DNA from: Aphrocallistes beatrix
Lineage: Eukaryota; Porifera; Hexactinellida; Sceptrulophora; Aphrocallistidae
Direction: 5' to 3'
NCBI GenBank assembly: GCA_963281255.1
Contig: OY725504.1
Coordinates: 620,001 to 684,000 of the forward strand
Length of the DNA stretch: 64,000 nucleotides
The translations under genes were made by a program, and so were the position numbers. Positions 343 to 54,300 of the stretch are shown one piece after another. Under the pieces are notes generated by a model. That model was given only the letters and a program-made list of their open reading frames with translations. It was not told the DNA's origin and made no database searches. Numbering within the stretch: the first letter of the stretch is position 1; each line of letters starts with the position of its first letter.

Positions 343-3300
343 CTGAAACAGAATATATCAGGTAATTACACTGAAAATTTAAACGAAGATATTTTCATAT
401 TTTATGATTAATCTCACCTAAGTGTACAGAAAGTGTAGATGACTCCTCTTTTGTAAAAATCAAGAGTTTTACAAGTTGCTCCGTGGCCCATTCCTTGTCA
501 TCGCTGGAGAGCTGATTAGAAAACTGACAAGCAGACAATGCATCCGCAAGGTTCACTACTCCGTATATGCTCCTCCACGTCTCCTCTATAAGTTTAGAAC
601 AATATTAGAGATTGAATAATCACTTTTCAAAGTTTTATTCCATTTTCTAATTTCGCTCAACTGTAAATGAGCTAATTTGGGAATATTATGGCACCAAGAA
701 ATCAAAGAGAAAGTATCTATACTATCTTTACAAGCGCGTTTGCGCACTTTCGTAGCGCAGCTAGCGAACACTTTGCGTTCTTCTGCGAGTGCATAGGAAT
801 GCCAACAAATTTATAAGTCCCTACGGGTGTCAAAAATTGAATATTTTTACAAATCAATTTAAAATTTGCCTATTTTATAAACATATTGTAAACAAAAATA
901 TAATAATAATTATATAATAATTATATAATTATTATATAATTATTATATAATTATTATATAATTATTATATAATAATTATATAATTATTATTCAATTATTA
1001 TTCAATTATTATAGCTTATATATTAAAACGCTAGGATTTTTTGTTTGTTTGTTTGTCCGAATTGATTGAAGAATTGGCAAGTCGTACAATAGATACATAA
1101 AGTAAACAAATTACCAAAATAAGCTAGAGACTAGCTTCCAACGGTTGACATGGGGTGAGTTACATAATTCTAATATAAGTAAAATATTACCAGATTTAGC
1201 CGAGTTGATCGCATCTATCACAATTTCAACCAGCATCTTAGTGACTGGGAAATTGATCGTAGCGAAAACTGTGGTATCATTCACAGAGGAGTGTGTGTTC
1301 AGGAAATAACTGTCTGTTAAAGTTTTCGCTAGAAAAAAAACTGATTATAAGTACTACTAGTATTAATATTAATTCACCAATAAATCTTAACAAAATCAAC
1401 AATCAACACCCACGAATGAAATACCAGCAACGTAGATGTACTTACTCGCAACAAGGGCAGCTAGGACATCCCTGGTACAACAAGCTACTAGCTGAGTGAG
1501 AGATTCCATGTTCTGGCTGAGAACTTGTTTGATGGCAGAAGCGATACAGACACTGTTGTCCAGACCGTGGCTGTAGCTACCGAGACGATTGGTTGCAGAG
1601 AGACGGAATAGGCGTAGGAGTAGGACGAGATCTTGGATCCCTGAATGTGACAAGTATAAATAGGAGAACTTTCACAAACCTAACTCAATTTATTATTATA
1701 TACTCAGATCTTAAAATTTAAATCTAGAATTAAGAACACGAATGGAAAAAAATATCTGTTCGTATTAACGAAATTCTACTGTAGACAGCCGGAAAATAAA
1801 CAAGTTAAAACACGAAAATATAAGAGCAAATTGTTTCAGCTTAGAAGTGCACAGTACTAACCTATATTGACCAGTCCGTACATGAAGTCGTTAGGTTTGA
1901 GGGAGAGAGAGGAGAAAGCTAGTAGCATCAGCTGGCGAGACATTTGGGTCTTGATTGCAGAGGTTATTCTATCCACTGAGTTGATGTACTCGTCCAGACT
2001 CAAACTGCTGGAGCACTGGTTCAGGAGGAAACCGTCTGCTTTGGAGAAAATGTTCTCCTGAAGAATTAAGAAAATAAAAACATAAATCTTCATTTTTAGT
2101 GCAGATGCACTAATGGCATGGACAGCGTACCATATCCGTCAGTATATCCATACGCGAAATCTAACAGTACAAGGGAGATCTCAACGACTTTTTCACTTAA
2201 GTAATAATGCGAATATTTTACGAGCGTTCGCTCGCTTGCACTGCGTGCCCTGTGGACACTTTTAATAAATACAGGAACTTGTTGACTTTTCCAAATACGC
2301 TAGAACTCTGTTAGTACGTACTCGGGATAAGACGTACTTCGGCTTAGTACGTACTCATTTCTCTGAATCAAAATTAATTTATTATATAGATACCTGTGCA
2401 ATATCAACTCGGTTAGCACGTACTCACGTACTATTTTCAGATTCCCAGAGGGGTGCGTCTTATCCGAGTTCTACTGTATCTATTCAATAAATATATTTTC
2501 TGTGTACGTAGCAGCAAGATCGACTCGATTTAAGATAGAAAAACATCAAAAAAATATTTAATTATCAAAATTTTAAAACGCACAATTTCGCAAGAGATTC
2601 TGTTCGACTTGACTGCTCGCTGGCCTAGAGGGTCATTCGAGCTGAAGTTCACATGTTCCAAATCTGAACTGGATTTCTTCGAGAAAATTATTCCTTTACA
2701 CATATCCTTCAATTCCTCCGCTACCTCGGGAACATTTCTGTACACGTCACGCACTGAATAGAATTACATTATGAATTATTTCGAAGAGAAGACAATAACA
2801 CACTCAACTAACCAAAAGCTGTTGGTTCTGGGCCATCCAATAGATCCTTATAGGGACTCTGTTTCTTCTTGTCAAGCTTGGCACTGTAAGAGAAATCCGT
2901 CTTACTGAACTAAAAACGAACTTGCATAGAATATCATTGCAGACAGATTAACATAGTCTGTGGTTAGAACATTTAATAATGCAATCGACTCCGCTTAATA
3001 GGACCGCCGGTTAATCAAACCAACCGCTTATTCGGACCACTATTGGCAGGACCGGAATAGTTCTCACACATAGAAACTACTACAGGTGACTCCGCTTAAT
3101 CGGGATACTTTAGTCTCGGATATTTTGTCCCGATTAAGCGGAGTTCCCAATTAACCGATGAAATTTGGTATTAGCTTCTATGTAAGGGAACCATTCCGTT
3201 CCTGGAGACTTGTCCCGATTAAGCGGAGTTGACTGTACGAAATATTTTGGGTTAATATGGTTCTCCGCTTAATCGGGTCAAAATATCCTCTGACCGATGT

Positions 3301-6300
3301 GGTCCTATTAAGCGGAGTTGACTGTATTAGAAGGGAATAGACTTACATCAGGGAAGAGAGCTTCGAGGAATTTGTCACTCTCCGTCTTGGCTGAAATCGC
3401 GGGGGGGGCAGGGACTGTCGCGTTAGCTGCAGGGGTGGAGGTAACAGCTGGAGCTGGAGCTGAGGGGAAAGCACCCCCTTCCAAGGCTAGAGTCTGCTCT
3501 AGAGTGAGTGGGAACATCAGGGGCTCCTCTCTAGGCGGGATGGGAGGAGGAATGTCCGATTCTCCCCCACTGTCCTCCTCATCCCCATGCTCTACCAGCC
3601 ACATCACGAACGAACTGGCTACAGAGATGGTCATAGTACAGCTTATGTATTAAAACGCTAGGATTTGCTTTCTTTTGTTTGTCGAATTGATTGAAGAATT
3701 GGCAAGTCGTAGGAATAAGAAAATTGGCATGTAGGTGTCAAATTATGTGACCATGATTAAGTTCTAAGAAATAAGCGAAATTTTCACACCTCTACAAAAA
3801 AATGGAAAACAATTTTTCACACCTTTTCTATACAATAGTATATACTATGACTACACTATCACAATAGAAATCATTGTACGACACTACAATAGACTGTTAT
3901 TAACACATCAAAGCAATAACTTATATAGATATCTTAATTTTATTATAGTGTATAGCAATAAGAAAGGTTATGTGTACATTTTCACACCTTTTAGACATAG
4001 TATGCATATATATAGATATATAGATATATACAGTAGAATTCGCTTATTAGCAACTCGAGTTATGCTCATAAAATGGGTGCAAATACGCGAAGTTGCTAAT
4101 AAGGGAACAGAATTAACACAAAATCTTCACCTGGGACCTGAAGAATTGGTTGCTAATAGAGCAATATTGCTAAAAAGCGAATTCCACTGTATTTTGTTTC
4201 ATTAGATTTTTTGTAGAAACTTACTCTGATTGGCAGTAGATTCGCCGGTCTTGAGTTTAACTTTCCGTCTGGCCCGACTGATGGCCTGCTCCGTGAATCC
4301 CATCTCCAGGAGAGAGCTGACGTAGGCGGGAGCAGGGGAAGGGGGCCTAGGTTGGATGGGGAGAGAAAGTTTGGGAGAAGATCTCCGTGTTTTAGGGGGT
4401 AGAGGAGGAGGGAGTTGAGGAGGGTGGTAGAGCTTAGGAATGTCAGGAGGAGGGTTGGGGATAGCAGCGATTGCGAGTTCATTCTTATCTGCTGTGTCAC
4501 TCCCAAACACTGCATCTACATAGACACAATAGCATATGATGAACTATAGCGTACATTGTTATTGTTTATTTGTTCCATCCTAATCCACTGTACTATTTGC
4601 TCGTATATGCCACAGTTAAAACGTCAATCGGTTAATGTGTAAAATACATGGAAAATTTCAGTTTTTTTGAGATTTGATTACATTTGAGATTTGTTTACAT
4701 TAAGTATTTATTGTAAACAAAAGTAAACAAATAATTCATTATAAAGATCTGAAAATATGATATTCAAAATCTACACCCCGAAAACCCCCATGTCACCCGT
4801 TGGAAGCTAGTCTCTAGCATATTTTTGAGATTTGTTTACTTTATGTATCTAATGCAAACAAAAGTAAACAAACTAATTATCTAACTCACTCGAAAATATG
4901 ATATTTGAAATCTACACCCCTGAAACCCCATGCCAACCGTTGAAAGCAAGTTTCTAGCCTATTTTTGCAATTTGTTCACTTTATGTATATATTGTAAAAA
5001 AAGAAATATTGTAAAGATGCTGCGTTTTAAATCTGAGCATGCTGAGAAATCTGAGCATGCTGCGATTTAAATCTGAGCATGCTGAGAAATCTGAGCATGC
5101 TGAGATTTTAAATCTGAGCATGCTGAGAAATCTGAGCATGCTGAGATTTAAATCTGAGCATGCTGAGAAATCTGAGCATGCTGAGATTTTAAATCTGAGC
5201 ATGCTGAGAAATCTGAGCATGCTGAGAAATCTGAGCATGCTGAGAAATCTGAGCATGCTGAGATTTAAATCTGAGCATGCTGAGAAATCTGAGCATGCTG
5301 AGATTTTAAATCTGAGCATGCTGAGAAATCTGAGCATGCTGAGATTTAAATCTGAGCATGCTGAGAAATCTGAGCATGCTGAGATTTAAATCTGAGCATG
5401 CTGAGAAATCTGAGCATGCTGAGATTTTAAATCTGAGCATGCTGAGAAATCTGAGCATGCTGAGATTTAAATCTGAGCATGCTGAGATTTAAATCTGAGC
5501 ATGCTGAGAAATCTGAGCATGCTGAGATTTAAATCTGAGCATGCTGAGAAATCTGAGCATGCTGAGATTTTAAATCTGAGCATGCTGAGAAATCTGAGCA
5601 TGCTGAGATTTAAATCTGAGCATGCTGAGAAATCTGAGCATGCTGAGATTTAAATCTGAGCATGCTGAGAAATCTGAGCATGCTGAGATTTAAATCTGAG
5701 CATGCTGAGATTTAAATCTGAGCATGCTGAGAAATCTGAGCATGCTGAGATTTAAAATCTGAGCATGCTGAGAAATCTGAGCATGCTGAGATTTAAATCT
5801 GAGCATGCTGAGAAATCTGAGCATGCTGAGATTTAAATCTGAGCATGCTGAGAAATCTGAGCATGCTGAGATTTAAATCTGAGCATGCTGAGAAATCTGA
5901 GCATGCTGCGATTTAAATCTGAGCATGCTGAGAAATCTGAGCATGCTGAGATTTAAATCTGAGCATGCTGAGATTTAAATCTGAGCATGCTGAGATTTAA
6001 ATCTGAGCATGCTGAGAAATCTGAGCATGCTGAGATTTTAAATCTGAGCATGCTGAGAAATCTGAGCATGCTGAGATTTAAATCTGAGCATGCTGAGAAA
6101 TCTGAGCATGCTGAGATTTTAAATCTGAGCATGCTGAGAAATCTGAGCATGCTGAGATTTAAATCTGAGCATGCTGAGAAATCTGAGCATGCTGAGATTT
6201 AAATCTGAGCATGCTGAGAAATCTGAGCATGCTGAGATTTTAAATCTGAGCATGCTGAGAAATCTGAGCATGCTGAGATTTAAATCTGAGCATGCTGAGA

Positions 6301-9300
6301 TTTAAATCTGAGCATGCTGAGAAATCTGAGCATGCTGAGATTTAAATCTGAACATGCTGAGAAATCTGAGCATGCTGAGATTTAAATCTGAGCATGCTGA
6401 GATTTAAATCTGAGCATGCTGAGAAATCTGAGCATGCTGAGATTTAAATCTGAGCATGCTGAGAAATCTGAGCATGCTGAGATTTAAATCTGAGCATGCT
6501 GAGATTTAAATCTGAGCATGCTGAGAAATCTGAGCATGCTGCGATTTAAATCTGAGCATGCTGAGAAATCTGAGCATGCTGAGATTTAAATCTGAGCATG
6601 CTGAGATTTAAATCTGAGCATGCTGAGAAATCTGAGCATGCTGAGATTTTAAATCTGAGCATGCTGAGAAATCTGAGCATGCTGAGAAATCTGAGCATGC
6701 TGAGATTTAAATCTGAGCATGCTGAGAAATCTGAGCATGCTGAGATTTTAAATCTGAGCATGCTGAGAAATCTGAGCATGCTGAGATTTAAATCTGAGCA
6801 TGCTGAGAAATCTGAGCATGCTGAGATTTAAATCTGAGCATGCTGAGAAATCTGAGCATGCTGAGATTTAAATCTGAGCATGCTGAGAAATCTGAGCATG
6901 CTGAGATTTAAATCTGAGCATGCTGAGAAATCTGAGCATGCTGAGATTTTAAATCTGAGCATGCTGAGAAATCTGAGCATGCTGAGATTTAAATCTGAGC
7001 ATGCTGAGATTTAAATCTGAGCATGCTGAGAAATCTGAGCATGCTGAGATTTAAATCTGAGCATGCTGAGAAATCTGAGCATGCTGAGATTTAAAATCTG
7101 AGCATGCTGAGAAATCTGAGCATGCTGAGATTTAAATCTGAGCATGCTGAGAAATCTGAGCATGCTGAGATTTAAATCTGAGCATGCTGAGAAATCTGAG
7201 CATGCTGCGATTTAAATCTGAGCATGCTGAGAAATCTGAGCATGCTGAGATTTAAATCTGAGCATGCTGAGATTTAAATCTGAGCATGCTGAGATTTAAA
7301 TCTGAGCATGCTGAGAAATCTGAGCATGCTGAGATTTTATATCTGAGCATGCTGAGAAATCTGAGCATGCTGAGAAATCTGAGCATGCTGAGATTTAAAT
7401 CTGAGCATGCTGAGAAATCTGAGCATGCTGAGATTTAAATCTGAGCATGCTGAGAAATCTGAGCATGCTGAGATTTAAATCTGAGCATGCTGAGAAATCT
7501 GAGCATGCTGAGATTTTAAATCTGAGCATGCTGAGAAATCTGAGCATGCTGAGATTTAAATCTGAGCATGCTGAGAAATCTGAGCATGCTGAGATTTAAA
7601 TCTGAGCATGCTGAGAAATCTGAGCATGCTGAGATTTAAATCTGAGCATGCTGAGAAATCTGAGCATGCTGCGATTTAAATCTGAGCATGCTGAGAAATC
7701 TGAGCATGCTGAGATTTAAATCTGAGCATGCTGAGAAATCTGAGCATGCTGAGATTTTAAATCTGAGCATGCTGAGATTTTAAATCTGAGCATGCTGAGA
7801 AATCTGAGCATGCTGAGATTTAAATCTGAGCATGCTGAGAAATCTGAGCATGCTGAGATTTAAATCTGAGCATGCTGCGATTTAAATCTGAGCATGCTGA
7901 GAAATCTGAGCATGCTGAGAAATCTGAGCATGCTGAGATTTAAATCTGAGCATGCTGAGAAATCTGAGCATGCTGAGATTTAAATCTGAGCATGCTGAGA
8001 AATCTGAGCATGCTGAGATTTTAAATCTGAGCATGCTGAGAAATCTGAGCATGCTGAGATTTAAATCTGAGCATGCTGAGATTTAAATCTGAGCATGCTG
8101 AGAAATCTGAGCATGCTGAGATTTAAATCTGAGCATGCTGAGAAATCTGAGCATGCTGAGATTTAAATCTGAGCATGCTGAGAAATCTGAGCATGCTGAG
8201 ATTTAAATCTGAGCATGCTGAGAAATCTGAGCATGCTGAGATTTTAAATCTGAGCATGCTGAGAAATCTGAGCATGCTGAGATTTAAATCTGAGCATGCT
8301 GAGAAATCTGAGCATGCTGAGATTTAAATCTGAGCATGCTGAGAAATCTGAGCATGCTGCGATTTAAATCTGAGCATGCTGAGAAATCTGAGCATGCTGA
8401 GATTTAAATCTGAGCATGCTGAGATTTAAATCTGAGCATGCTGAGAAATCTGAGCATGCTGAGATTTTATATCTGAGCATGCTGAGAAATCTGAGCATGC
8501 TGAGAAATCTGAGCATGCTGAGATTTAAATCTGAGCATGCTGAGAAATCTGAGCATGCTGAGATTTAAATCTGAGCATGCTGAGAAATCTGAGCATGCTG
8601 AGATTTAAATCTGAGCATGCTGAGAAATCTGAGCATGCTGAGATTTAAATCTGAGCATGCTGAGAAATCTGAGCATGCTGAGATTTAAATCTGAGCATGC
8701 TGAGAAATCTGAGCATGCTGAGATTTAAATCTGAGCATGCTGAGAAATCTGAGCATGCTGAGATTTAAATCTGAGCATGCTGAGAAATCTGAGCATGCTG
8801 AGATTTTAAATCTGAGCATGCTGAGAAATCTGAGCATGCTGAGATTTAAATCTGAGCATGCTGAGAAATCTGAGCATGCTGAGATTTAAATCTGAGCATG
8901 CTGAGAAATCTGAGCATGCTGCGATTTAAATCTGAGCATGCTGAGAAATCTGAGCATGCTGAGATTTAAATCTGAGCATGCTGAGATTTAAATCTGAGCA
9001 TGCTGAGAAATCTGAGCATGCTGAGATTTTATATCTGAGCATGCTGAGAAATCTGAGCATGCTGAGAAATCTGAGCATGCTGAGATTTAAATCTGAGCAT
9101 GCTGAGAAATCTGAGCATGCTGAGATTTAAATCTGAGCATGCTGAGAAATCTGAGCATGCTGAGATTTAAATCTGAGCATGCTGAGAAATCTGAGCATGC
9201 TGAGATTTAAATCTGAGCATGCTGAGAAATCTGAGCATGCTGAGATTTAAATCTGAGCATGCTGAGAAATCTGAGCATGCTGAGATTTAAATCTGAGCAT

Positions 9301-12300
9301 GCTGAGAAATCTGAGCATGCTGAGATTTTAAATCTGAGCATGCTGAGATTTTAAATCTGAGCATGCTGAGAAATCTGAGCATGCTGAGATTTAAATCTGA
9401 GCATGCTGAGAAATCTGAGCATGCTGAGATTTAAATCTGAGCATGCTGCGATTTAAATCTGAGCATGCTGAGAAATCTGAGCATGCTGAGAAATCTGAGC
9501 ATGCTGAGATTTAAATCTGAGCATGCTGAGAAATCTGAGCATGCTGAGATTTAAATCTGAGCATGCTGAGAAATCTGAGCATGCTGAGATTTTAAATCTG
9601 AGCATGCTGAGAAATCTGAGCATGCTGAGATTTAAATCTGAGCATGCTGAGATTTAAATCTGAGCATGCTGAGAAATCTGAGCATGCTGAGATTTAAATC
9701 TGAGCATGCTGAGAAATCTGAGCATGCTGAGATTTAAATCTGAGCATGCTGAGAAATCTGAGCATGCTGAGATTTAAATCTGAGCATGCTGAGAAATCTG
9801 AGCATGCTGAGATTTTAAATCTGAGCATGCTGAGAAATCTGAGCATGCTGAGATTTAAATCTGAGCATGCTGAGATTTAAATCTGAGCATGCTGAGAAAT
9901 CTGAGCATGCTGAGATTTTAATCTGAGCATGCTGAGAAATCTGAGCATGCTGAGAAATCTGAGCATGCTGAGATTTAAATCTGAGCATGCTGAGAAATCT
10001 GAGCATGCTGAGATTTAAATCTGAGCATGCTGAGAAATCTGAGCATGCTGAGATTTAAATCTGAGCATGCTGAGAAATCTGAGCATGCTGAGATTTAAAT
10101 CTGAGCATGCTGAGAAATCTGAGCATGCTGAGATTTAAATCTGAGCATGCTGAGAAATCTGAGCATGCTGAGATTTAAATCTGAGCATGCTGAGAAATCT
10201 GAGCATGCTGAGATTTAAATCTGAGCATGCTGAGAAATCTGAGCATGCTGAGATTTTAAATCTGAGCATGCTGAGAAATCTGAGCATGCTGAGATTTAAA
10301 TCTGAGCATGCTGAGAAATCTGAGCATGCTGAGATTTAAATCTGAGCATGCTGAGAAATCTGAGCATGCTGCGATTTAAATCTGAGCATGCTGAGAAATC
10401 TGAGCATGCTGAGATTTAAATCTGAGCATGCTGAGATTTAAATCTGAGCATGCTGAGAAATCTGAGCATGCTGAGATTTTATATCTGAGCATGCTGAGAA
10501 ATCTGAGCATGCTGAGAAATCTGAGCATGCTGAGATTTAAATCTGAGCATGCTGAGAAATCTGAGCATGCTGAGATTTAAATCTGAGCATGCTGAGAAAT
10601 CTGAGCATGCTGAGATTTAAATCTGAGCATGCTGAGAAATCTGAGCATGCTGAGATTTAAATCTGAGCATGCTGAGAAATCTGAGCATGCTGAGATTTAA
10701 ATCTGAGCATGCTGAGATTTTAAATCTGAGCATGCTGAGAAATCTGAGCATGCTGAGATTTAAATCTGAGCATGCTGAGAAATCTGAGCATGCTGAGATT
10801 TAAATCTGAGCATGCTGAGAAATCTGAGCATGCTGAGATTTTAAATCTGAGCATGCTGAGAAATCTGATCATGCTGAGATTTAAATCTGAGCATGCTGAG
10901 AAATCTGAGCATGCTGAGATTTAAATCTGAGCATGCTGCGATTTAAATCTGAGCATGCTGAGAAATCTGAGCATGCTGAGAAATCTGAGCATGCTGAGAT
11001 TTAAATCTGAGCATGCTGAGAAATCTGAGCATGCTGAGATTTAAATCTGAGCATGCTGAGAAATCTGAGCATGCTGAGATTTTAAATCTGAGCATGCTGA
11101 GAAATCTGAGCATGCTGAGATTTAAATCTGAGCATGCTGAGATTTAAATCTGAGCATGCTGAGATTTAAATCTGAGCATGCTGAGAAATCTGAGCATGCT
11201 GAGATTTAAATCTGAGCATGCTGAGAAATCTGAGCATGCTGAGATTTAAATCTGAGCATGCTGAGAAATCTGAGCATGCTGAGATTTAAATCTGAGCATG
11301 CTGCGATTTAAATCTGAGCATGCTGAGAAATCTGAGCATGCTGAGATTTAAATCTGAGCATGCTGAGAAATCTGAGCATGCTGAGATTTAAATCTGAGCA
11401 TTTTGAGATTTAAATCTGAGCATGCTGAGATTTTATTTCGAGTAATTTTGATAATTTATTTGTGTGTAGATTTCGTATCATTTATGTTCCCCTATTAGCA
11501 ACTCGAGTTGCTAATAAGCGAATTCCACTATACACATTTAACACTATTAATAGCATAGAACTTTTCGAGGTGGTTGCATGCTTTCGTCTGGTTAATGTAT
11601 ATGTATTCTTTCGCACCCAAACTGGTCAGTGTTCTCCTATAGCTGCATTATATTATCAGTCAGCGCGATATTTCACTGATTACATTTCAGAAATGAGTGT
11701 GTTTACTTGTTTACCAGTGCAGTCCGTAAACAGTTTGACGAGAGAGTCTCTGGAGAGAAGAGCGTGCGCCTTCTCCAGACAGGAGATGGAGACGGCAGGG
11801 GAGAGGGGACTGGGGGTGGTGGAGCGAAGTACGATCTGTCTCAGGATCTGCTGCACGGCTTGTGAAAGGTCGCCGTTGTCTTCTGCCACCGATTCCGCGC
11901 TTATCGAGATGGGGTGGTAGGTCAGGAGCTGGCAGAACCGATCCTGTGCCAACAAGGTCTGGAGAAAAAGAGAAAGAGAGAAAGGATTGCAAACTCCGCT
12001 TAACCACGCTTGCCACAGGAATGTGTTGCGTAATTCATGGTTTAAGCAATTTTAAATGGGGAAGCCATATAAGTTTGGGGTTACTACTATAAATAGAAAA
12101 ATCCCAAATGCTTCCAAGGGATAATTAATAAGACCGCCGGTTAATAGGGTCACTTTTGGCAGGACCGGAATATTTCTCACACTTAGAAGCTAATACAAAA
12201 TAATTTCGGTTAATAGGGTTCTCCGCTTAATTGGGTCAAATTGTCCTCTGACCAATGTGACCCTATTAAGCGGAGTCGACTGTAAAATTCAAAGAAACAT

Positions 12301-18300: not shown

Positions 18301-21300
18301 TCTCGTGGAATTTATTTGAAAATAAATATGTAGTGTCACAGAAACCAGAGGAGCCTTATTATATAATCTAATTTATCGTTTGTTAAAATTGAATTAATAT
18401 CTTCATAATATGAGGGCGACTAATTTCGGATTGTGCTCCAATCCAATGGCTGGCTAATGGGCAAACTTGCAATTAATCTTGGAGAACAAGTGCTTAGCTG
18501 GCGAATACTTCATATCTGCATCAGTATAGTACCTGGAGGGAGTTATTCACTCGATCCACAGATCCACAGATTCAACCTAAAAGTAGTTTGTCCTGCCTGC
18601 AAACTCTACTGTAGAACTAAATCTGGGGGAAAACCAACTTTTATTGGGGATAGGAACAGGTGTGTAAAGATTGCGAAATGTCACACCTTATCCAACAATG
18701 GATGCTCTGTAGTATGGGAGAATGTGAACATGTCCGCATAGTGAAACAAAGTTTTGCTCAAAGACTGAAATGTATAAATATAAAAAGGTGCTAATGACGT
18801 CATGATTCGGTGATGAGTCGACATTTTCGTCTGAGACAACTTGCTTGAGCCAGTGTCAAAATACTGTACAAAAAATCAGCTTTCTGCAACTGGAAATTTC
18901 GCAATCAATTCGTATATATCGTATTATAATAAAGAATCATTTTAAACCTTCATGATTTTTGCTTAGAGTGAAATCGAAGCAAAAAATCAAAAACACATTA
19001 TTTCAACAATTTTTTTTCAATGAGATTGTAATCACATCTCATCTTGGGACAGTTTTCAATTATTAATAACCACGAGCAGAGTTTTTTTTAAGGATTTGCT
19101 CAGAGGGCCCTGCAAAAGATTAGAGGTCCCTTACCTAGAATACTACATTTTATGATATTCAGTACATTACGAATGTTAAGAAATTAGAGGTCCCTGAAGA
19201 GAAATTAGAGGTCCTTTTGGGCCCTCTAATTTAACTTAAAAAAACACTGACCACGAGTGTAATTTCCAAATGGATGGAGATCAAATTAGAGTGTCAGCGA
19301 TAGGAATTATTTTAAGGTTCAGGATTTTTGCTAAAAAATCAGTTTTAATAAAGCAGACCATTTCTTGACTTGGCACTATGATGTGAAATCGCGAAAATCT
19401 GGTCCACCATTAGACAATTCTCCTAACTGAGCTGTGAAAGTAAAAGGAATGTTTCAAGGTAGGATATGACGCACGAAAAGAGACGCTAGGAATTCGAGTT
19501 TTTCGCCAATTGACTGAGAGGAGCTAGGAGATATCGTTAGTTGAAGTTTTACAAGAATGAACTTAATTTTGTGTGGAATGGATGACACACAGTTAGAGAT
19601 CGCATCAATTGTAATGATAACATATCCTTCAACGTTAAAATTTGCATTATTCTTGCGACTAAAAACATTGAACACAAAACACACAAACAACTTTTGTTAT
19701 GAATCACATAACTAAAAATCATAAAAGTGTACCTCTTATGTCATATTTTGTCCATGAATATAATTTATAATTTTTGTATCGAATGAGGTATTTACTCTAG
19801 TAGTACAGTCGACTCCGCTTAATAGGGCCACATCGGTCAGAGGACAATTTGCCCCGATTAAGCGGAGGACCCTATTAACCGAAAATATTTTGTATTAGCT
19901 TCTATGGTGAGAGCTATTCCGGTCCTGCCAAAAGTGGCCCGATTAAGCGGCTGACCCGATTAAACAGTGGCCCTATTAAGCGGAGTCGACTGTATTTTAA
20001 ATAGACTGTGGAGTGTTTTTCATACTAAGGAGAGATGGCATATTAAAAGGTTTTTGCAAACAGAATAGCCCAACCTGTAAACAAGTTCGTCTTCAAATAA
20101 AGAGAAATTGAAATAATTTAGTGAAAAGAGATTAAATAATCAATTGAATAAAGTATAGCTGTGTAGGCGTAGATTTATAGAATTCATGTTTTGGAGAAAA
20201 TTTGCAATAAATGATGGTAAAATCATTTGCAAAAATGGCATTGGCAGAATCTTCAATGGAATTTAATCATATGACATCTGCTTTCACCCTTCAGAACAGC
20301 AGTATTTCTCTTAATCCACTTTCCAATTAGATAACAATGGCATGAGAATTGCCTGAAATCTGGAGGACATGTGTTCTCTAATTAGAGTCATTAGTAGATT
20401 TTGCTAATTTACAGATTAAATAAATTAATGAGATTATTACTCTATTGTGTCGAAGGTGGTATTTGAAAATAGCTTTGAGCGAGTGACGAATGCTAACGGA
20501 TTTCATCACAAATAAGAGAGAGTTTTCGTGAGGGATCTGTGCAGTTTCAATGGACAATTATGGACATTTTCAATTCGGTGCTTTGAATAAATCAATAAAC
20601 TGGTTTAGAGTAGGAGTTAGTGTCTATAAGTTATATATTACATCGCATGAATCGCATTTATCAGATTAAGTCGTTCCTAACTTTAACCGTCCCGCAGGAT
20701 GCTAAAACGCCAGTGTTTAAAAGGGATTTGAGTGTAGAAACGAAGAGAAACTGAGTTAGTGCCAAATTGGATCCAACAAGGAAATATTAGTACAGTCGAC
20801 TCCGCTTAATCGGGCCAAAATGTCCTCTGACCGATGTGGCCCTATTAAGCGGAGTCGACTGTATATGAAAAGTGAGTAGTTAGGATGTTGAAATTTGAAT
20901 CAACATCCATATTGTTAGAATGGATCTAGCACGTTTGCGTACATTAGTTACTTTTTCACCTTGCATGAACTTCATCTGTTTTAACTCAACGTTACCTTGC
21001 TCTGTTTCCGCCATTCCTTTTTCACAGTACCACGATGGAAAATATATAAGTATCCATCATGGGAAAATTTATCAGTAGCCATATGGTATTTTTATAAACT
21101 TGTCCTCTCCAAATGTATTTGTAGATCTTTATCTTTAAGTTCTAATGAATTATTAGTTTACAGTTGTATGAATCTGTCAAATATTGATTTAATTGTACGC
21201 AACTGTGAATAAAAACCCCTGTGCGCAACTGTGATGTACGCAACTGTGCGGCTTCCTGTTAGAATGACAGTCTATTGATTTGCTGAATAGAATAGAACAG

Positions 21301-33300: not shown

Positions 33301-36300
33301 ACGATAGGATGCTATAAAGCTTTTGGATTTTTTGGTAAAAAATTAAAATACCCATCTGTACAAAATTGAGATAAAAGACAATTATTCAAAAGTTTACCAG
33401 AGAGTTCTGCTAGAACAGAGAGAATCTGAGGAGAGCAAACTTCGTTAACATCTGAGCATTGGACCTTTCCTTGCAACCAAGACATGTTGATAACCAGATC
33501 AAGGTAAAGTGGAACCTTTTCCTTCTCAACTAGAGAATAAAATTTATAAAAGTCTATAATTGGAAAATATCTAATCTATACAAATCTATAATTGAAACAC
33601 AGTCGACTCCGCTTAATCGGGTCACTTTTAGCAGGACCGGAATAGCTTCCACACATAGAAATTAATACAAAATATTTTCGGTTACTACGGTTCTCCGCTT
33701 AATCGGGGAAAAATGTCCTCTGACCGATGTGACCCTATTAAGCGGAGTCGACTGTAAATCTAAACCACAGAGTGATTGATATGAGACATAGTTTCTATGC
33801 TAATCAATTGTGTTTGATAAAATAGGTGTGAATTTGTCCAGTAGTAAAAATGACTGGAAAGTGTACAAATATATATGTTATGGCTGGAAGTTCAATCCAA
33901 ACTAGTAGTGAAATTGCTTGCTGTTATTCGCTTAAAAAGTCCTAATTAGACAATATTTTTAATTATTAGAAAAGATGAGGTGGAAAGATTTGCGATGATA
34001 GAACTAATAGGAGATATTGGTAACATTAAAAAATAACTGAGTGTAAAGAAAAACATTAAATATATTAATCATGCCATAATAAGATTAATCATGGCTAATG
34101 TTACTAAGAGACACTGATTGCACTGGGATAATATAACACTGCATTAGTTCGAACTCTGAAAGTTGTCATTCGCTCGACTCGGTTTTTAGTGGAGCTCTTC
34201 CCTTAAAGGAAATTTTATTTTTGCCTCAGAGCAAATAAATGGTCATTGATGGAACATAGGCATGAATAGAATATTCTACTTATATATTAGGTGGTGGAGG
34301 TATGTGAGAAAGTAGTGAACTAATCAAACGAGTGAAATGCAATTTACCAAGGGAGTATATAGGAGCACGAGATGAAATTTTGGTTTGAGACTAGGAGCGT
34401 CTCTCTGGATCCCATGGAGGGATGTATAATGCCCTGATTTCAACATCTATATAATGAACAGTATTTGGCAAGAAATCCATAAAGAAAACTGTACTAATTT
34501 GCAGTATCATTTATGTTAAATCTAAATCTACACGTAATAAGTTAGAAAGCAACAGTCATTTGAGAATGCTCCAGTCTCCATCAACACTCGTTGGGAAGCG
34601 AAATAATTGTTGGATTGACGAACTGTCGGATTATGCAGTACAGATTGCATGGTATGAAGCAGATTATACAGGTGAGGTTCCACCGTATTATAAAAAGCAT
34701 CTACATGGACACTTTTGTAATTTGAAAGATTGTTTATCGAATCGCTTGGGTGGGCACATTCCATTTGTATACAAAGATAAAAAGTCATCAAAACTTTATC
34801 TACTATATCCCATTACATATGGACAAATAGCCTTTTTCAGCATTCTTGAGATTTTATTTCTAGAAATACGTAATGTTTGATATCGCACCTGTTGATATCA
34901 GAGTATTCACATTTACAAACGCGATATCTATCTGATAGTGTTTATCTAAATCCGATTGAATATTTATTAAGTAAAACTAAAACTTGGACAGATAAGATGA
35001 TCTAATCTACATATTTCACAATTTATTACAAAGGTGAAATTTAAACTAGCCCAAATTAACAATATCTGCTTCTTCACTATTGTGAGGCTCTTCTTGGCAA
35101 AAGTATGTTTGCAATTTCACAGTATCGATAACAGATTTTTATACAAATATTTGCCCAAGTTCGTTTGGATCAAATAGGTTCGTTTTGAATTGTCATACCA
35201 TAGCTTACTTACTCATCAATAAATCACAACTTGGATAGATAAGATACTACAATCTACATATTTTTACAATTTAACACGAAGACTAAAAGTCATAAATAGC
35301 TAAAAGAGCCCTTTTACAACGAAAATAGGTCTCTTCATCAGTCTCGAGATCATTTACTATCTTGCACTGCTGATAGTACATTTTTCCTTCCCATAACTAC
35401 ATTTCATATCCACATACATCTATACTTCTACTTGGACTCACAACACATCCAAGTGATGATGTAATTTGCAATTGAATTTATGAGAAAAATTTGCCAAAAA
35501 TCTGATGGATCCTTATTAGTATAAGCAACTTTTGAATGAAGTGTGCCAGTTTATCTATAATGTCAACATATTTATGAGCTTGTGTGCCAGTGGCAAGCCT
35601 GTCTACTATAAGTGTCGGTCTGTAGACCTATATTTATTTTCAACTCCGCGTGCCATCAATTTAATGCTCGCATGCCATAGGTTGCCGACCCCTGATATAC
35701 GTTATCATCATGATATACAGTGCAGTTATAACGGAACCCTCAGGATATCGATTCTACTTCATTCCAAGCTCCACTTGTTTAACATTAATAATGATATAAC
35801 CGGACCAAAAAATTGTGTTATATCCACGATCCGACTTGTTATCCCAGGAATTGACAGGGCGTACTGATTCATAATAGATCTACAAACATATTTATCATTT
35901 CGTAGGATCAGGATTTATTCTTTGATTTTTAGTCAGATTAAAAAAAAGTATGTATCATATTCTGGTTCTAGCACGTGCATATTAAAGAGGTGATTTAGCT
36001 GCATTTTCAATTAGGTTTTTATCAGTGCAACCACCCTTGTTAAAATTTTAAAATTTAATTATGAAAATAGGTACGATGTACAAAATTTTGATATCATGTG
36101 ATGCACCAATCAACCGTACCGTCTCTGAAGTGCAATATCTGATGAGAGAACAACTTGTACATACGCATGTTACATCACGCAAACCAAGTAGCTCAACCTT
36201 AGATTGAAAGTCTAACTCCACAACACGAAAAAAGTACAGCAATTTAAGTCGATACACTACCACAATCTATATTTATAATATTGAATTTCAAAGCATGCCA

Positions 36301-39300
36301 CACACAACTCGAAACACAACATATTGTTTTCTCAGCAGTCAACACCGTAATTCAACCACCGAAAAAGTGATTCGCATGTAATCTACCAAAACGACAAAGA
36401 AAGGTCGATCATAATGAACCGTCACGGGAAGGGAGTGACAATTTCTGATTTTGTATAATAAATAGATTAGTAATCAGAAGTTTTTCTCTATCGATTAGTC
36501 AGTAAAAAAGATCTTACAGGAACAACTAAAATGGGCGGAACAGTCTTGTATTAATACCTAACGACAGGAATGAATGGAACTGTTTGAAAGTGTTTTATTC
36601 TAGGTTTCACCACCAACAAATATTAACTGATCATACTTAACACGGATAAATCATCATTTGGGTAATCTTGACCTGACAATAAAACTCCCAAGAGTTGAGT
36701 GTATATATTGTCATCTCATCTAGAAAAGTTCTCGAATGTAACCCCGCTTAATCTAAAGAAAGCCGACATCCTTTTTGGCTTCACCTTCCCTCTAGTTGAT
36801 AAATTCAGGTACAATGTTTTGGCATAACAATTAACAAACCGGCTTTAGTGCATGCTTTAGCTGCCTGCGCAATCTGTTTGAAAACGTAGGAGAGAATCTT
36901 ATTGAAGGCTGAGCGTATTTTCAGCTGAAGATCTCGAGGAGCTGATGAGATGTTTCCCTAAACAAGAAACTCAATTCTTCACAAGATCAATAGATGTATA
37001 TCTTATGTATTAAAACTCGATGTTGTTTTCTTTGGTTTTTTTTGTGCAAGTTGATTGAGGAACTGGAAGGTGCTAGAAATGTCAATTTTGACACACAGGT
37101 AAATAAGAATTAGTGAACAAGGGAGTTCGAAGATCTAATATGCGAAAGCTTTACACCTCGCCGAGATAGGTGACAAATTGTGCCGACCAATGAAGTTCGA
37201 TTATTTTATAATACAAATACATTGGGAAGCGCGCTTGTACGTAATAATACTATAATTAGTACCAATCCTTATTATCAATTACGCATATAATTGTCAATTA
37301 AAAATTAAAAATATAAATTTCACTCAATACATGGAAGTATCATGGTCGCATTTTCGACAATTCCGTAAATAATGAATATTTAGAAAATAATTTATGTATC
37401 AATTTAAATCCAATAAATGCGTAAATATTAATAAAATCATTATGTCGAAGAATAAAAGCAAGTTTGGATAATTTGTGGGTAATTCGAGCTTTCAGAGATC
37501 ACATAATAAATTAGGAATACATTATCTTGTGTCAAACAATCAAACTATGACCATGCTAATGCGGCTTTGATCTTAACGATGCAGGCTGGTACAACACTTC
37601 GCAATGAAAAAAAATCGCTTATATTGGACCCACGTATTATGAAAGAGCATGCTCCTAACTCACTAAACGGTGTAGAGCTATAAATATTTAATGAGAAAAT
37701 TACAAGTCAGTAATAGAGTGGTTGCATCAAAATTTATCGCTATAGAGTTCATTTGTATGGTAAGTAGCAACAAGATATTTATGTCGACCCAAACTTTTAC
37801 AGTTATAATTTTAACAGATCTGTGATATGCTGATTATCAATCAATTTCAGAACAAGGTGTAAAATAATCGTAAAAAAAACTAAGGAGTCTGGAGGATTCT
37901 AAATTAGAAAACGCAAATCTTATCAGTTTAAGAATTTGGACTGAGATGTATTCTTCTGAATGCGTCATTTAAATTCCAGTGCCAATAATGACCCCAAAAT
38001 ACTCAGTTAGATTCTTATAATTAAGTGCAGAATTGTTGTACTGTATCTACGAAGATAAATTGGAAACGATATGATGACAGCTTTGCGCCAGATAATATTA
38101 ATATAATCTCTCTTATAGTGAATTTCAGTCTATTATAGTTTTAAACCAAAATCTTAATGAAAATTCTGATAACTTTGAATCAACTCATTCAATCTTGAAA
38201 TTAGAGAGCTCATTCATAACTCATCGCACGTAGCCATTACATCTTGGCATTTTCATAATGTTTGTGGTGGAGAGTTAGAAACCTCGAAAGTAAACGCAAA
38301 TAAAGAAAAACACACACATCAGAAAAGAGTTTTATCACAACAACACTCGTGGCCTGAACTTTACGGAGAGATAAACCAAATATGTTTGTGCAGGATTAGG
38401 ATTAGTTGCAAAGACCTGATTGGATATTGACTTCTATTCCAAGCATGTGGCATAGCTTTCAGTGTCTCTGAGAAGTACGAATACTTTACTCTTATCGCAA
38501 TAGATACGTATTGAAACCAATATTGTGCAAATAAATGGGAAGTTTATATTGACTAAATATGTCTATGGAATTTTAGCATTCGTTATACGTGAATTTATAT
38601 AATTTATGCGCAGTTAGGCATCCACTTTCTAGGAGATAGTAGAGGTCTTCTGGTATGCATTAGCATTTTAGTAAATTTGAGATATCAGAAAATGAATAAT
38701 AAGTTCTATGAATATTCACCATACCATGACAACGAAAGGCATCCTTTGGAATCCATGCAATCCAGAGTTCCCGAGTATGCTAGTCTGTAAAAGTCGGAAG
38801 GCGGTCGGATGCATTGAGCTGAGCTGAGTCAGGGGTTTGTTCCCTCGACCCAGAAGGATTGTCTGGACAAGCTTGATAGCGTCCAACCGTAGCTAAAAAT
38901 AGAAATTAACATTGATGAAACTGATCCAATTGTTTGATACGATACAGAGTCAAAATAGAAAACCGATCAAATTAACATTTTCAAAGATGACTTCTGTGTT
39001 CTGTGAATTAGGTTACTCAGGTATGCGTTGTGTCTACTTAAAATTTGAATATTATGTTGTAACATTATTCTTACATGGTAAACAGAGACATGCCCTGATC
39101 AATATCATTTAATGTCTACCAGGTGCCATGATGCATTCTCCCCGGGTGTGGAGGTATAACAAGGAGCCGATATCTCTGATTTATTTGCATAATTCCATCT
39201 AAATTCGCCCATTCAAGTTTGCATAGAAGATTCAAAATTCAATTGAGTTTCAGTTGCAGCTCGTATTAGGTCTCATTCAGAAAAGGTGCACGTAAGAAAT

Positions 39301-45300: not shown

Positions 45301-48300
45301 GTAAGTACATGCATATATCGGCGGTTCGAACTAAATTCAAGAGACAAGAAAAAGGATTTCCATCACTTTATGGAACTTCAGATTCAGACATGGAAGAGGT
45401 TAATAAACGTATTTCGTTCAAATCTACTACAGATGATTCTAGTGTTTAAAAATTCTGACTCAGTATAATTTTATTAAAAAAAGAACAAATGATGTTGTCA
45501 TTACAAGATTAAAACAGATGTAGAAAGTAGTCTGACATCTTATTGGCCTGCTACAGCACAAATTAAAAATTTTGATCCATGTAAAAATGGAATTTAGAAG
45601 TTATCGACCGAGAATTAGGTCAATACGTAAACTGAACAAGAAAGTGTGGTCTGGTTTAACTGTGACATAGCCGTTGGTTGCATTCAGTTTATGTTTGCGG
45701 AGTCGCATATAGTTACTATGTAGTGTTAGGTAGGACGCACATAAGGAGTGATTTCGACATCTTGCATGTTAAATAAGCAGGCGAGTCATGAGTCGACAGA
45801 ATTGATATGAAAAGCAAGTTGTGAAAAGTGAACAAGTATCGCTAGGAAAGGTTGCTAATTCGTAATCAAAGTTCAAAAACGATGCTAAGAAATATTAAAA
45901 AGCAGAAATTTGTTTTTCTCACAAATAATTTCAGACCGGAGAAGATACAAATGAATCTTACCTAAAATGGGAAAATTAAAGTCAGCAACTAGACTATCTA
46001 ATGCATGAGATATGATTAGATCATAGTGCTGGTACGAGTGGTTAGGTAATACACACTGCTATCTATCTCTAGCATTTACTATCAATAGATTATTCCGAAA
46101 TATGATGAGAAATAGTGTGTAATATAGGATATCAGTTTAACCATGAAATACTTAGGTAGAGTTGAAGGACTTTATCCTAGAAATTGTATGAGTCAATGAA
46201 ACCATAAAAGTATTACTCAAGTAAGATGCCAATGATTCCGGAAAACGACAATTTGGATAAACAACAAAAACTACATCAATGAAAAGTTGATCCCTCATAA
46301 ATATATATATATACAGTAGAGCGTCAGTTATCCGAACCCCTTGGTTGACCAAACTAAAATATATTAAATTTATAAATGATGCATCCGTTGATAATTGAAA
46401 GTACTACGCTGCCATCATTTTATATACTATTGATGATACGTACATATATCAATATGTATTTTATCCATATTCATTATTATGACTACTTAGTACTACTGAC
46501 CAACTTTTCTATATAATTACATAACAACTTCAGTTATCCGAACCCCCTCGGTCCCAACCCGTTCGGATAACTGACATCTTACTGTATACTATACGTACGT
46601 ATGTATGTATGTGCGTGTGCAATATTACACAATATCCATTTTTGGCTACAGTAGTTCTAACATAAAAACTTTGCCCACTCAAGAGCAAATTGATTTTGAA
46701 TAATTCCACACTCATCGCACCAAATCATGATATATTTGTGATTCAGCAGTAGCATGAATAAAGCATTGGGAAGTATATAGTAGAAACTGAACACAGGTTG
46801 TCTCCTGAAGATATTCTTAAGCAAAATTATTTTTGTTTAGAATATCGACTACTGTACAGTATCGTATTCTGGAATTCTTAAACGTTTATAGACTAAACTT
46901 GCACTCACAGAGGAAGCTGGTTCTGAAGAGGCGCTATCCTTACTAACAGCAGGTGCCACCACGTATACTAAGAATAGGCACAGAGATCTGATAACAGCAC
47001 ACAGCTGATTGAATTCCTCTTCTCCACTTTGGGTGCTAGCTTGAGACTCTCCGACAGATTCTGCTTCAAGCGGTCTCAAGGAGAACAGTTCTCTCCTCAC
47101 ACGGAATACGGCCTGATAAGCTTCTGCTATCTCCAGCGAGACTTTGGAACTAGAAGAAGAATCTTGTAAAGATTTCAAAATTTATTTAATAATCGAATTT
47201 CAGATAATAACCTGTGTTTGGGAGCTAGTATTGATAGCCTGCAGTGTCTGGCTATTGTGGCTAACATTGCACAAGAAACCTCCTTCAATCCGGGTATATC
47301 ATCATCTCCATTCGTGTCCCATTCTAAAAATAGAAGTGTGAATGTATAGTCGAAACCGGTTTTTTCTTATTATTTCTTTACAAGTTCAAACCTAAGTTGA
47401 CTAATCCATAGAAAGATGATGAAGAATTATGAATTATTCAATTAATGAATTATTCAAAATCTCACATTAGTGCAGATTATATGCCCAAAAGTGGTTAAAA
47501 GGTTGCTCATGTTATATACCTCTCAATCCCTAAGCGAAATATCAAATATTTTTTCATTATTTTAGTTTCAAATTTTGAGTAATTCATTGATAATTCATGA
47601 ATTAGTCAACTTAGGTTCAAACAGTAAGAAAAATACGATGGAAATTAATATAGATTTGGAATTTTTTTACATAATTAAGATTCTGAAATAGTAAGAAAAA
47701 AACGATGAGTAAGGATAAACCGGAGTGAGAAAAAAACGGTTTCGACTGTACTTATTATAAAGTGGATGAAAAGTTCTATGACATACCTCTGACAGTTGCG
47801 AACTGAATCAGCTGATCGTAGGCCTCCAGACAGTTCTTAGACTCAGTGCGTGCATGAAGAAGCTCCAGAATCAACTCAGTTCCTAGCTCAGTTGATTCAG
47901 CTGACACCGCTGATTGTGAATCCAGGGACAAGACAGATTCCACTAGCTCGTTAGGATTGAATGGGAGAGATGAGATGTGCTGTTCTGACACTAATTCATT
48001 GGTAGAATCCCTCCACTGATGAAAACCTAAATTTAATTAAGATCGTTATAAATATAAACAGAAAGTTTTTAGTCAAAATACAGGTGACTCCGCTTAATCG
48101 GGACACTTTGGTCTCGGATATTTTGTCCCGATTAAGCGAAGTTCCCAATTAACCGATGAAATTTAGTATTAGCTTCTATGTAAGGGAACCGTTCTGTTCC
48201 TGGAGACTTGTCCCGATTAAGCGGAGTTGACTGTACACTATTCCCACCTTTCTTATAGCCATCCTGCATTCCATTGGCTAGGAGCATAGACTCAGTCCAT

Positions 48301-51300: not shown

Positions 51301-54300
51301 TAATCTCCTGTCCAATGGAGTACTGAGAGTTGGAAAGAAATACGGCGCATTTCAGATGCAGTTTGAGTAGATTGAGACAATTCACAACAAATTCTACATT
51401 GTCTCTAAAAGTAAACAAATGAAAATAATAATAATAATAATAACAAAATACAAACATGCATATTTTAGACATCCATGTTCAAAGTTTCTTGGATTTCCTA
51501 GCAAGGCCGGCGAGAGCAAAACCCGGGCCCAGGACTGACATGTATACGGGCCCCCTTCCCTAAATTAATAAATTTGCGTCAATTACGTGAAATATGTGAA
51601 TGATGGCTTGCAGGTTTACTTTTTAGATACGCTTATTATGAAAGTTATTGTCTATTGTACAGTTGTAACCGTAGTACAGTACAATACTATATAATTGTTA
51701 TCGCAAGACATGACCATCTTATCAGGAGGGAAAACAGTAGGATGTCTTTGATGGCCCCTCTGCACAGCGGTGCGGATCTGTTCTGAGGAAGGTGTCTCGT
51801 TGTCGAGCATTCCGATGTCAAAACTATGCAGCTGCCCTACGGATATCAAGGGAGTACTTTCTACAACTGTACTTTCAGCGGTAGGAGCTATAGAGCCAGA
51901 GGATCTCGGTGATACAGTTCGGGACGGCTGAACCTCCAATGCCGCACTACTACAGCTACTACTGTCAGAACAAGATTGCAGAACAAGATTGAGGAACTAG
52001 GAAATTCCTAGTTCCTCAATCAAATAAAACAAAGCATGCATAACTAGTCTCTTACTCTAAAGAGTCGAATGGAGTGTGTGTCTGCGAAGAGTCTAGTCCT
52101 GTGCAATACTTCTCTAGGAACCCTCTCAGCATCCTGAACGTGTTCTCTGTCATGTCCAGACAGAATGGCCAACTCATCAAGGTGTCATTCCTAAACAAAC
52201 AAATAATAAAGATAGTAAATAGCGCATTCAATCCATTTTGGTGCACACACATCTCTCAATCTGAAGACGTACTATCAATACCTGTCAGTAGGCAGTGCTG
52301 TCCAAATGATGCTGTGAGAAGTTCCAGCTGAGATCTGTTGGATCTTGGCCGAGGGCATCAGGATCTTGGTGGGGGTGTGCACTGGAGTGGTCAGATGTCC
52401 CAGTCCGCATTGGCCCATGTTGTTGTTACCCCAGGCATACACCTCATGATCTGTGTACGGATGTAAGAACTTAACATTTGTACGAGGAATTGGGTTAACG
52501 TAAAACTAATGAACATATTGTGGTCGAGGGATTATCTAGGAGCGCAAGACGCTCCTTTAGGAGTATGATTTAAGCCCCAAAATGTTTAGGAGCGTGAAAA
52601 TTTAGAATATGACCCAATCAACACTCGATTATAGTGTTCATTATTGATTAGGCGTATGAAATTTATGGGTTTGAGATGAGGAGCGTATCTCTGGAGGGCT
52701 GTATAGACCCTGATTGTAGTATATCAACCTTTAGTGAGAGCTAGACAATGCGCTTCTCCAATCGAAATATCCGTGATGAATTCTTCCGACAGAGTTTCCA
52801 TCTCCCAAGGCTCCAAGCTCTGAGTGTCTCCGTCGCTCCCTCGACCCAAGGCGGGGCCAGTCCCCCACGAGTAGACCTGAGAAGTTTGAAATCAAAAGAA
52901 ACCAGGAAAACCGACAAAATTAGTGCCAGACCTTTCCAAATGTGGAGAGAGCGAGAGTGACAGGATTCCCCGCTAGGATCTTACAGATGTGTCTGCCTCG
53001 AAGCGACCTGATTTCCTAAATCACAAAAGTAAACACGAAAAAGAATCACCAAATCAGTCCTAACACCTACCTTGGGTACGAGTTGCTTGCTGGTATTGCC
53101 ATGGCCAAGTTTACCTAAAATATAATACAGGTGACTCCGCTTAATCGGGACACTTTGTTCCCAGATATTTTGTCCCGATTAAGCGGAATTCCCAATTAAC
53201 CGATGAAGTTTGTATCAGCTTCTATGTATGGGAACCATTCCGTTCCTGGAGACTTGTCCCGATTAAGCGGAGTTGACTGTACGTCTTAAAAATGAGAGTT
53301 CTATACACAAAATTCCTCAGAGTCATTTACCTCCTTCTCCGTTCCCCCAGGACCAGACGAATTGTCCATCCTGACTGACTGCAATTGTGTGTGAACTACC
53401 GCAGGACACCTGTCCCACGCCTGTGACGCTGGTGACGAGCGTGGGACACATTTGAGAGGTGTTGTTGTTGTGTCCTAACAGGATTGACTGTTAGAATTGT
53501 GTAAATGCAATTACCCGCTACAGCAATATTATTAAACGCATGGACAATGGATAACTGAAGATGAATCTAACACTATTGAAGTGTAATACACTGTTAGTTA
53601 GAACTGTAGCCATGTCTGACCTAGTTTCCCTCCGTCTCCATCTCCCCACGTGTAGAGCTCTCCACTGATAGAGACGGCTGCACTGTGCTTCCAGCCAGCT
53701 GACACGCTCTTTATGACCTAATTATAGAACAAATATCTTCACACCTCCAATAAACTGAAATGTGTCTGCATATTCCCAATTACAGAAACGATGAATTTGA
53801 AGGGAATTTTGTACAATTAAAATGATGGAATGTTCAAGGAATAAAGGCACTGAAATAACATAAATCTCTTACTTTCCCAATGAAGGGACCTTCGATCAAT
53901 TTCGGAGTTTTCTGAATGGTCGGATTTCCATGTCCGAGTCTACCACATTCTCCTAAAATGATAGATACATATGTATATATTCAAGATAGTTACACATGAG
54001 ACTTTTCACACTTTCATCAACTCAGTACCTTCACCCCAGCTATAGACTTGTCCGTCACTAGTCAGTGCTAGGCTGTGACCATCCGACCCACGCGATGAAG
54101 ATATTTTAGTCAACTTCACACCTTTCACTTCAACTCTCACCATTTGAGAAGTCGCTTGAGAGTTGCCAGTGCCGAGACGTCCATAGGACCCCTACACACA
54201 CAGTAACAGGAACGTATCAAGCTAGGAAGTGTCAGTATATACATCGTATACTTGGAGTTTTTAAGGTTACGGTAATATCAATGTAGTCACTGGAATAGCT

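Follow-up and report, generated by a model that had tools for sequence, protein, structure and literature searches.

How do three tandem arrays with unrelated monomers come to lie beside parts of one dispersed module? The question is raised by a 64,000-nucleotide stretch of the Aphrocallistes beatrix genome (positions 620001-684000 of contig C18 in a 100.5 Mb eukaryote assembly of 28 contigs; hereafter, the window), in which an original prediction had seen the same module next to the arrays that are here called A, B and C. What was taken for a module proved to be the body of a single Helitron family, present in fragments; this family consists mostly of non-autonomous copies of 0.6-2.4 kb. As to the arrays, we regard it as likely that three routes placed them beside this body, namely insertion of Helitrons into existing arrays, read-through copying of an array together with its element, and later expansion of arrays at broken copies.

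The prediction of one module beside three arrays was borne out in part. Element parts lay 1-22 bp from each array on at least one side, and the three monomers were indeed unrelated to one another, but the blocks involved differed: the core repeat M1 at array B, the 5' terminal block M2 touching array A, and M1 followed by the 3' terminal block E3 at array C. The features concerned are listed below; arrays were called with Tandem Repeats Finder (TRF), and three module blocks were compared by BLAST with 68 loci and the window, all block orders referring to the matches listed.

858-900, plus strand: M1-like fragment at the left edge of array A (M1 positions 1-43, 72% identity, a weak match, E 0.001; family D16)
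903-1013, no strand: array A, 11-bp unit ATAATTATTAT, about 10 copies (TRF)
1013-1086, plus strand: M2, the Helitron 5' terminal block, containing (TTTG)n and GAATTGATTGAAGAATTGG; the terminal TC is GC here
1087-1156, minus strand: two pieces of the 141-bp core repeat M1 (positions 7-31 and 102-141; BLAST)
3641-3990, plus strand: 5' end of another copy, with M2 (3640-3711) and the R5 region up to a 22-bp repeat; no M1 or E3 downstream in its orientation
4666-5006, plus strand: M1 core repeats, about 2.3 copies (monomers at 4683-5006), in the orientation opposite to that expected from the M2 block at 3640
5029-11433, no strand: array B, units of 18/22 bp that are nearly palindromic (AAATCTGAGCATGCTGAG), with periods 18/40/80, the last of higher order (TRF)
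11434-11485, minus strand: degenerate M1 remnants (positions 72-45 and 94-75) to the right of array B, weak matches (E 9e-5 and 0.001)
37000-37066, plus strand: 5' block similar to M2 (77% identity, BLAST), from a related family
56578-57264, no strand: array C, 10-bp unit AAACATGTTT, interrupted by TTAATTAACTATG (TRF)
57276-57388, minus strand: M1 truncated to positions 118-1, with array C on one side and E3 on the other (BLAST)
57388-57469, plus strand: E3, the Helitron 3' terminal block, with hairpin GCGGACACGTAGTGTCCGC and the end GGGCTTG, then host T

Anatomy, target site and coding partners of the Helitron family

The blocks recurred in one order, M2 in plus orientation, a region R5 of about 300 bp with two 22-bp repeats, tandem copies of the 141-bp M1 in minus orientation and E3 in plus orientation, which corresponds to the layout 5'-TC… M2 - R5 - n x 141-bp M1 - E3 hairpin …GCTTG-3'; many copies were truncated. 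Terminus sequences were taken from a listing of anchored ends, and the figures given for end letters refer to the matches listed. Both borders were sharp, the 5' end reading TCTTATATATTAAAA(C/T)GCTAGGATTT(TTTG)n…GAATTGATTGAAGAATTGGCAAGTCGTA after a preceding A and the 3' end reading GCGGACACGCAGTGTCCGC AAGCCGCGCAGCG CAAGCAAGCGAAGCGTGCTTG before a following T. According to the original prediction, the module might be part of a mobile element, such as a Helitron-like one, that carries a tandem-repeat core, and constant outer ends were to be looked for; the assignment to a Helitron-type element was confirmed, with amendments to its details. The 5' end carries the canonical TC (TCTTATATATTA in most copies, with GC in the window copies at 1013 and 3640) and the 3' end is constant as well, but most copies end in CTTG instead of the canonical CTRR, and the core consists of the M1 repeat and not, as had been supposed, of the variable arrays A, B and C. 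The 3' end is fixed after the G of CTTG by four head-to-tail joints in which GCTTG passes directly into TCTTATATATT, an arrangement that is expected from circular intermediates (PMC4778049). The hairpin GCGGACACGCAGTGTCCGC is located 34 nt inside the 3' end and a second, weaker hairpin extends to the end itself; the z score was -2.8 for the last 62 nt and -0.8 for the last 24 nt, the canonical arrangement being a palindrome of 16-20 nt about 11 nt from the end.

Complete elements (n = 35) were 624-2366 bp long and contained no M1 core motif in four cases, one in ten, two in 13, three in six, and five and eleven in one case each, so that 31 of the 35 had at least one. The base preceding the 5' end was A in 50 of 55 cases, G in four (head-to-tail copies among them) and T in one, and the base following the 3' end was T in 48 of 49, the sole exception being the array joint of locus L025. 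Insertion took place between A and T without target duplication: 31 of the 35 complete elements had A/T flanks and the other four followed G, and the counts redone without duplicate flanks gave the same result. A search for empty sites returned 312 spanning matches from the 35 queries, mostly repeats matching repeats; joined flanks matched an uninterrupted site for about five of the 35 elements among the sampled loci, most of them repeats, and the matches usable by eye were those of L062, L055, L048, L017 and L031. Across the genome, the 5'-end motif had 2,041 matches as compared to 145 in the control, corresponding to about 1,900 five-prime ends, and the 3'-end motif had 6,592 as compared to none; the latter is three times as frequent and probably shared with related families. 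The longest run of the core was seen at C1:9290145-9297013, a near-continuous row of 141-bp M1 matches over almost 7 kb, where the core itself may be turning into a satellite.

Replication protein genes, for which a search had been suggested, were found with the same 5' end as the module. The family's 5' block was read upstream of a Rep domain (PF14214) on contigs C4 (L099 with L080) and C20 (L098 with L082), and on C1 a match to the first 15 bases of the 5' end (2742503-2742517) lies 2 kb upstream of the Rep at 2739921. PIF1 helicase matches (PF05970) follow downstream of each of these Reps, and comparison of the Rep stretch of L080 with Helraiser gave E 8.9e-128; the reading frames are broken in the C4 and C20 copies. 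The shared 5' block, Rep, PIF1 and the Helraiser match are the marks of a Helitron, and an autonomous member with Rep and a PIF1-type helicase is tied to the family through the shared 5' end. In 14 of 20 Rep loci (L069-L087) a 69-bp tandem repeat was present near the Rep domain, which in L082 encodes EKAERLKAQLNYQTAH-type units, and L073 showed an STPR repeat match. A second repeat family with GTAACGAATTGATTGAAGAAACTGCC (L090 475-490, L092 60-110, L096 495-600, L098 480-800) has the GAATTGATTGAAGAA motif in common with M2, often adjoins TATA runs and TTACTATTAAAACTCGAT, and is perhaps a related Helitron family.

The family resembles Helraiser/Helibat1 in its 5' TC, insertion between A and T, 3' hairpin, Rep/PIF1 protein and head-to-tail joints (PMC4778049). 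It differs in ending with CTTG, not CTRR, in carrying a 141-bp tandem core upstream of the gene, and in the position of its main hairpin 34 nt inside the 3' end with a weaker one at the end (PMC4778049); CTTG-3' ends are known for variants and for maize Helitrons (PMC4778049). With the oyster element Cg_HINE/pearl the family shares a left block with a microsatellite, a tandem core of fixed orientation, a palindromic right block and genome-wide dispersal (PMC7492417), M1 lying between the end blocks and (TTTG)n within M2. However, Cg_HINE/pearl is of the Helentron type, with subterminal inverted repeats and insertion at TT (PMC7492417), features described as hallmarks of HINEs (PMC7492417, PMC4067079). 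Here, the target was A followed by T and not TT or T-rich, and no exact inverted match of at least 8 bp between the first and last 110 bases was detected in 26 of the 35 elements, the longest being 10 bp as compared to the 11-15 bp of Helentrons and HINEs. Membership in the HINE/pearl group, including the pearl-type element of the original prediction, was rejected for these reasons.

Proximity of tandem arrays to element parts

The points at which arrays meet the element varied. In the window, array B is met at position 44 of M1, array C at position 118 of M1 and array A at the 5' terminus of M2; elsewhere contacts were observed at about position 49 of M1 and at positions 21, 47 or 70 of R5. 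A single module with a constant array-facing end was rejected, since the contact points vary.

Proximity was quantified in 64 element loci (L003-L068 except L009 and L039), from which the window, its copies L001, L009 and L039 and its paralogue L002 were excluded, and arrays of at least 60 bp with a period of at least 7 were counted. TRF detected 22 such arrays in 17 loci, of which nine were located within 30 bp of an element part as compared to a random mean of 2.67 (p 0.0015) and 14 within 100 bp as compared to 5.68 (p 0.0005); contacts at 0-2 bp were common. Counted by locus, 8 of 64 had an array within 30 bp and 13 of 64 within 150 bp. Proximity is above random, yet few loci have an array, and the tie between arrays and the Helitron is therefore real but confined to a minority of copies.

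Array type A and its shared junction

Type-A arrays on contig C1, taken as exact 33-mers of (ATAATTATTAT)3 grouped by eye, with inexact arrays outside the count, numbered 14. Eight of them adjoined a Helitron terminus (five read, three by coordinates), whereas less than 1% of arrays would be so close by chance given 8,633 end matches genome-wide; the objection that such arrays might be equally common without the element is thus answered for type A. The contacts read are those at 676, 6295, 7380 (both sides), 7782 and 12288 kb. By coordinates, 11 bp separate array and 5' end at 1010 kb (pattern coordinates), an array-like 8-mer is flush with the 5' end and about 23 bp from the exact 33-mer at 7004 kb, and array-like joints at M2 and at E3 lie 143-170 bp from the nearest exact 33-mer at 5988 kb. 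The list of 3'-end matches covers the first 5.1 Mb of C1.

One non-canonical junction, GCGCGCTTG followed directly by AATAATTAT, is present in exact form at 15 sites on 10 contigs. Seven more sites differ by one mismatch, with A after CTTG in five, C in one and T in one; the matches number 66 in all, the 44 with two mismatches were left uncounted, and the junction set comprises the 15 exact sites and the five with A, that is 20. Because the junction breaks the rule of T after GCTTG seen in 48 of 49 ends, repeated independent insertion is an unlikely source, and its identity from site to site together with this breach makes a single origin followed by copying the simple reading. In one sub-lineage, the array has probably been copied along with its element. 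At L101, L103 and L109, three of the junction loci, different DNA precedes the nearest 5' end, each time with A before TC, and the spacing of about 0.6-0.8 kb suggests that each 5' end and its junction are parts of one element.

At five of the 20 junction sites, namely C12:1315 kb (L025, read through), C1:12288 kb (both ends read) and, by coordinates, C8:3806, C13:2813 and C1:5989 kb, an M2 of the same orientation begins flush with the far end of the array. At C1:676, C1:6295 and C1:12288 kb and on C12 (L025) the array was read up to this far end; at C1:676 kb a truncated M1 comes next. We propose that the rolling-circle machinery ran past the 3' terminator of a copy situated in front of a ATAATTATTAT array, which would have led to the copying of element and array as one unit. 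This unit would then have spread, leaving one junction at at least 15 sites, at some of which another Helitron 5' part would have come to follow the array. Such bypass of the 3' hairpin has been reported for Helraiser in about 11.7% of events, carrying flanking DNA along (PMC4778049); it was shown in human cells, for a bat Helitron that had been reconstructed, and in the genomes of bats, and circles with exact head-to-tail joints were also described (PMC4778049). The head-to-tail joints and the array-bearing sub-lineage found here fit this model of bypass and circles (PMC4778049).

Other contacts are different in nature. L062 is a Helitron insertion into a pre-existing array, its joined flanks matching the units of its own array at 81%, and the array on either side of the element makes insertions of the same kind probable at L008, L056 and C1:7380 kb; insertion into existing arrays is a further route to array contact. 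The array of L062 (523-965) consists of AAAAACTAAGT and its reverse complement in a 105-bp higher-order unit, which is split by the Helitron. The order E3, array, M2 was found with a T joint at L028, and E3, array and R5 from position 47 follow one another at L014. Array A of the window has M2 on its right and the weak M1 fragment on its left.

Arrays B and C and the proposed routes to array contact

The 41-bp pattern of array B had 780 matches as compared to none in the control and was present in at least six places among the first 100 matches listed. One of these, C1:910573-913932 (L002), matches window positions 3153-6601 (at least) with 95.5% identity over 3.4 kb, comprising a gene segment, M1 and array B, and beyond array B the C1 flank differs from the window flank. 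Gene capture as the origin of the C1 copy was considered and set aside: the gene sequence common to this copy and the window reaches from array B back to 3153 at least, and with differing DNA beyond the array duplication is the simpler explanation. Pfam returned no match in the two window stretches taken as host-gene exons. On C14 and C15, both flanks of array B match each other by eye and look like copies of one locus. On C1, C14, C15 and in the window, array B is bordered on either side by M1 or R5 in inverted orientation; the right-hand M1 remnants in the window are degenerate and inverted relative to the left flank. By contrast, M1 was not found at either edge on C11 nor at the left edge on C9, the one examined there, so that independence from the element was partly seen for this array type. 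Given these edges and the paired copies, array B is a satellite able to stand without the element, spread at least partly by duplication.

For the 30-bp pattern of array C with its TTAATTAACTATG spacer, the only match outside the window was one on C3, which had two mismatches. Array C abuts M1 at position 118, followed by E3, which fits a recurring pattern of arrays placed against 5'-truncated elements (L014, L031, L008, L113 and array B on C1). Both B and C adjoin elements whose 5' side is missing, and, judging from this placement, these arrays probably expanded or recombined there later.

Palindromy did not provide a common cause. All three arrays had been described as self-complementary, yet only array B exceeds what its composition explains (0.78 as compared to 0.53 in shuffled sequences, p 0.024; 40-mer, p 0.0005); array A reached 0.91 as compared to 0.84 (p 0.65) and array C, although a perfect 10-bp palindrome, 1.00 as compared to 0.67 (p 0.12). 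In the sampled loci, the excess palindromy of the nine arrays near element parts was not significantly above that of the 13 far from them (p 0.06), and none of the nine but four of the 13 beat their own shuffles at 0.05. The idea that the module seeds the amplification of short palindromes was not supported by this comparison, and hairpin-forming palindromes as a common cause of the contacts were rejected on the same ground, array A being no more palindromic than its shuffles.

Could all contacts be independent insertions between A and T, into or at the edge of pre-existing AT-rich arrays? Target preference of this kind is in line with the A/T rule, with elements enclosed between arrays at L008, L056, L062 and C1:7380 kb, with the joined flanks of L062, and with a type-A-like 8-mer flush with the 5' end in 12 exact and 18 one-mismatch cases among 121 matches. 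It is difficult to reconcile with 15 exact copies of one junction that has A instead of T after GCTTG, with several C1 arrays that have a terminus on one side only (the other side judged from exact matches or short reads), and with array B, which is not AT-rich; as the sole explanation we consider it unlikely. Somewhat less likely still is that the element seeds satellites through slippage or rolling-circle amplification acting on a short spacer at its ends or between tandem copies. This would explain E3, array and M2 in succession at L025 and L028, as read, the two ends read at C1:12288 kb and the same order by coordinates on C8, C13 and at C1:5989 kb, as well as the direct E3-M2 joints and the frequent contacts at 0-2 bp, but the same 11-bp monomer would have to arise independently at each type-A site, and type B lacks M1 at both edges on C11 and at one on C9. 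For array B alone, and compatible with the three routes, it is an evenly balanced question whether the array is an independent satellite moved by segmental duplication and recombination, its M1 neighbors being bystanders from a very common Helitron. Its presence in at least six places, the gene and array common to C1 and the window, the flanks of C14 and C15 and the edges on C9 and C11 speak for this, whereas inverted M1 or R5 on both sides at C1, C14, C15 and, with a degenerate right side, in the window is not obviously accidental.

The account by three routes has to accommodate several observations that weigh against it. In 51 of the 64 sampled loci no array was present within 150 bp, an outcome that the original prediction had itself named as speaking against it. 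Six of the 14 type-A arrays on C1 (1153, 6264, 6441, 6905, 7509 and 7703 kb) had no adjoining end among the matches listed, and the array at C1:6295 kb runs into host DNA. Moreover, the far end of the array is known at seven of the 20 junction sites (four read, three by coordinates), interiors were read in few of the junction units, the Rep-bearing copies are linked to the family by their 5' block, and the account of arrays B and C is drawn from their position.

Two further repeats were noted in the window. A dispersed inverted-repeat element with CTCCGCTTAATCGGG motifs is present at 3081-3334, 12137-12292, 19788-20000, 33582-33764, 48063-48236 and 53110-53282, and a 31-bp satellite, CCGTCCCGGAAATTAGGCATCTTGACTCGTC, with about 16 copies occupies 61615-62106, the one element match nearby, 61 bp to the left, being weak and to part of M2.

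Satellites linked to Helitrons are already known. They have been published within Helitrons of Caenorhabditis (PMC4595182) and within oyster HINEs (PMC7492417), and Helitron-linked arrays were reported in molluscs (PMC5139131). The Caenorhabditis satellites likewise form several unrelated families, one of them built on a palindromic decamer, but they are described as contained in the Helitrons (PMC4595182), whereas here type A is situated past the 3' terminus and types B and C at broken copies. In the portions of this literature at hand, no paper was noticed that describes copying of an array beyond the terminator of a Helitron with a junction common to several sites, and it is the unusually clear junction record that stands out here. 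Tentatively, and with the odds against it, a Helitron lineage may have made a satellite beyond its own 3' terminator part of the mobile unit, with element-array-element units that spread themselves and an array that may terminate or receive the next copy. How satellites move between places is an open question. One non-canonical junction at at least 15 sites looks like a natural record of rolling-circle copying past the element end, and in a genome with thousands of Helitron ends it offers a countable test system for transposon-driven satellite spread.

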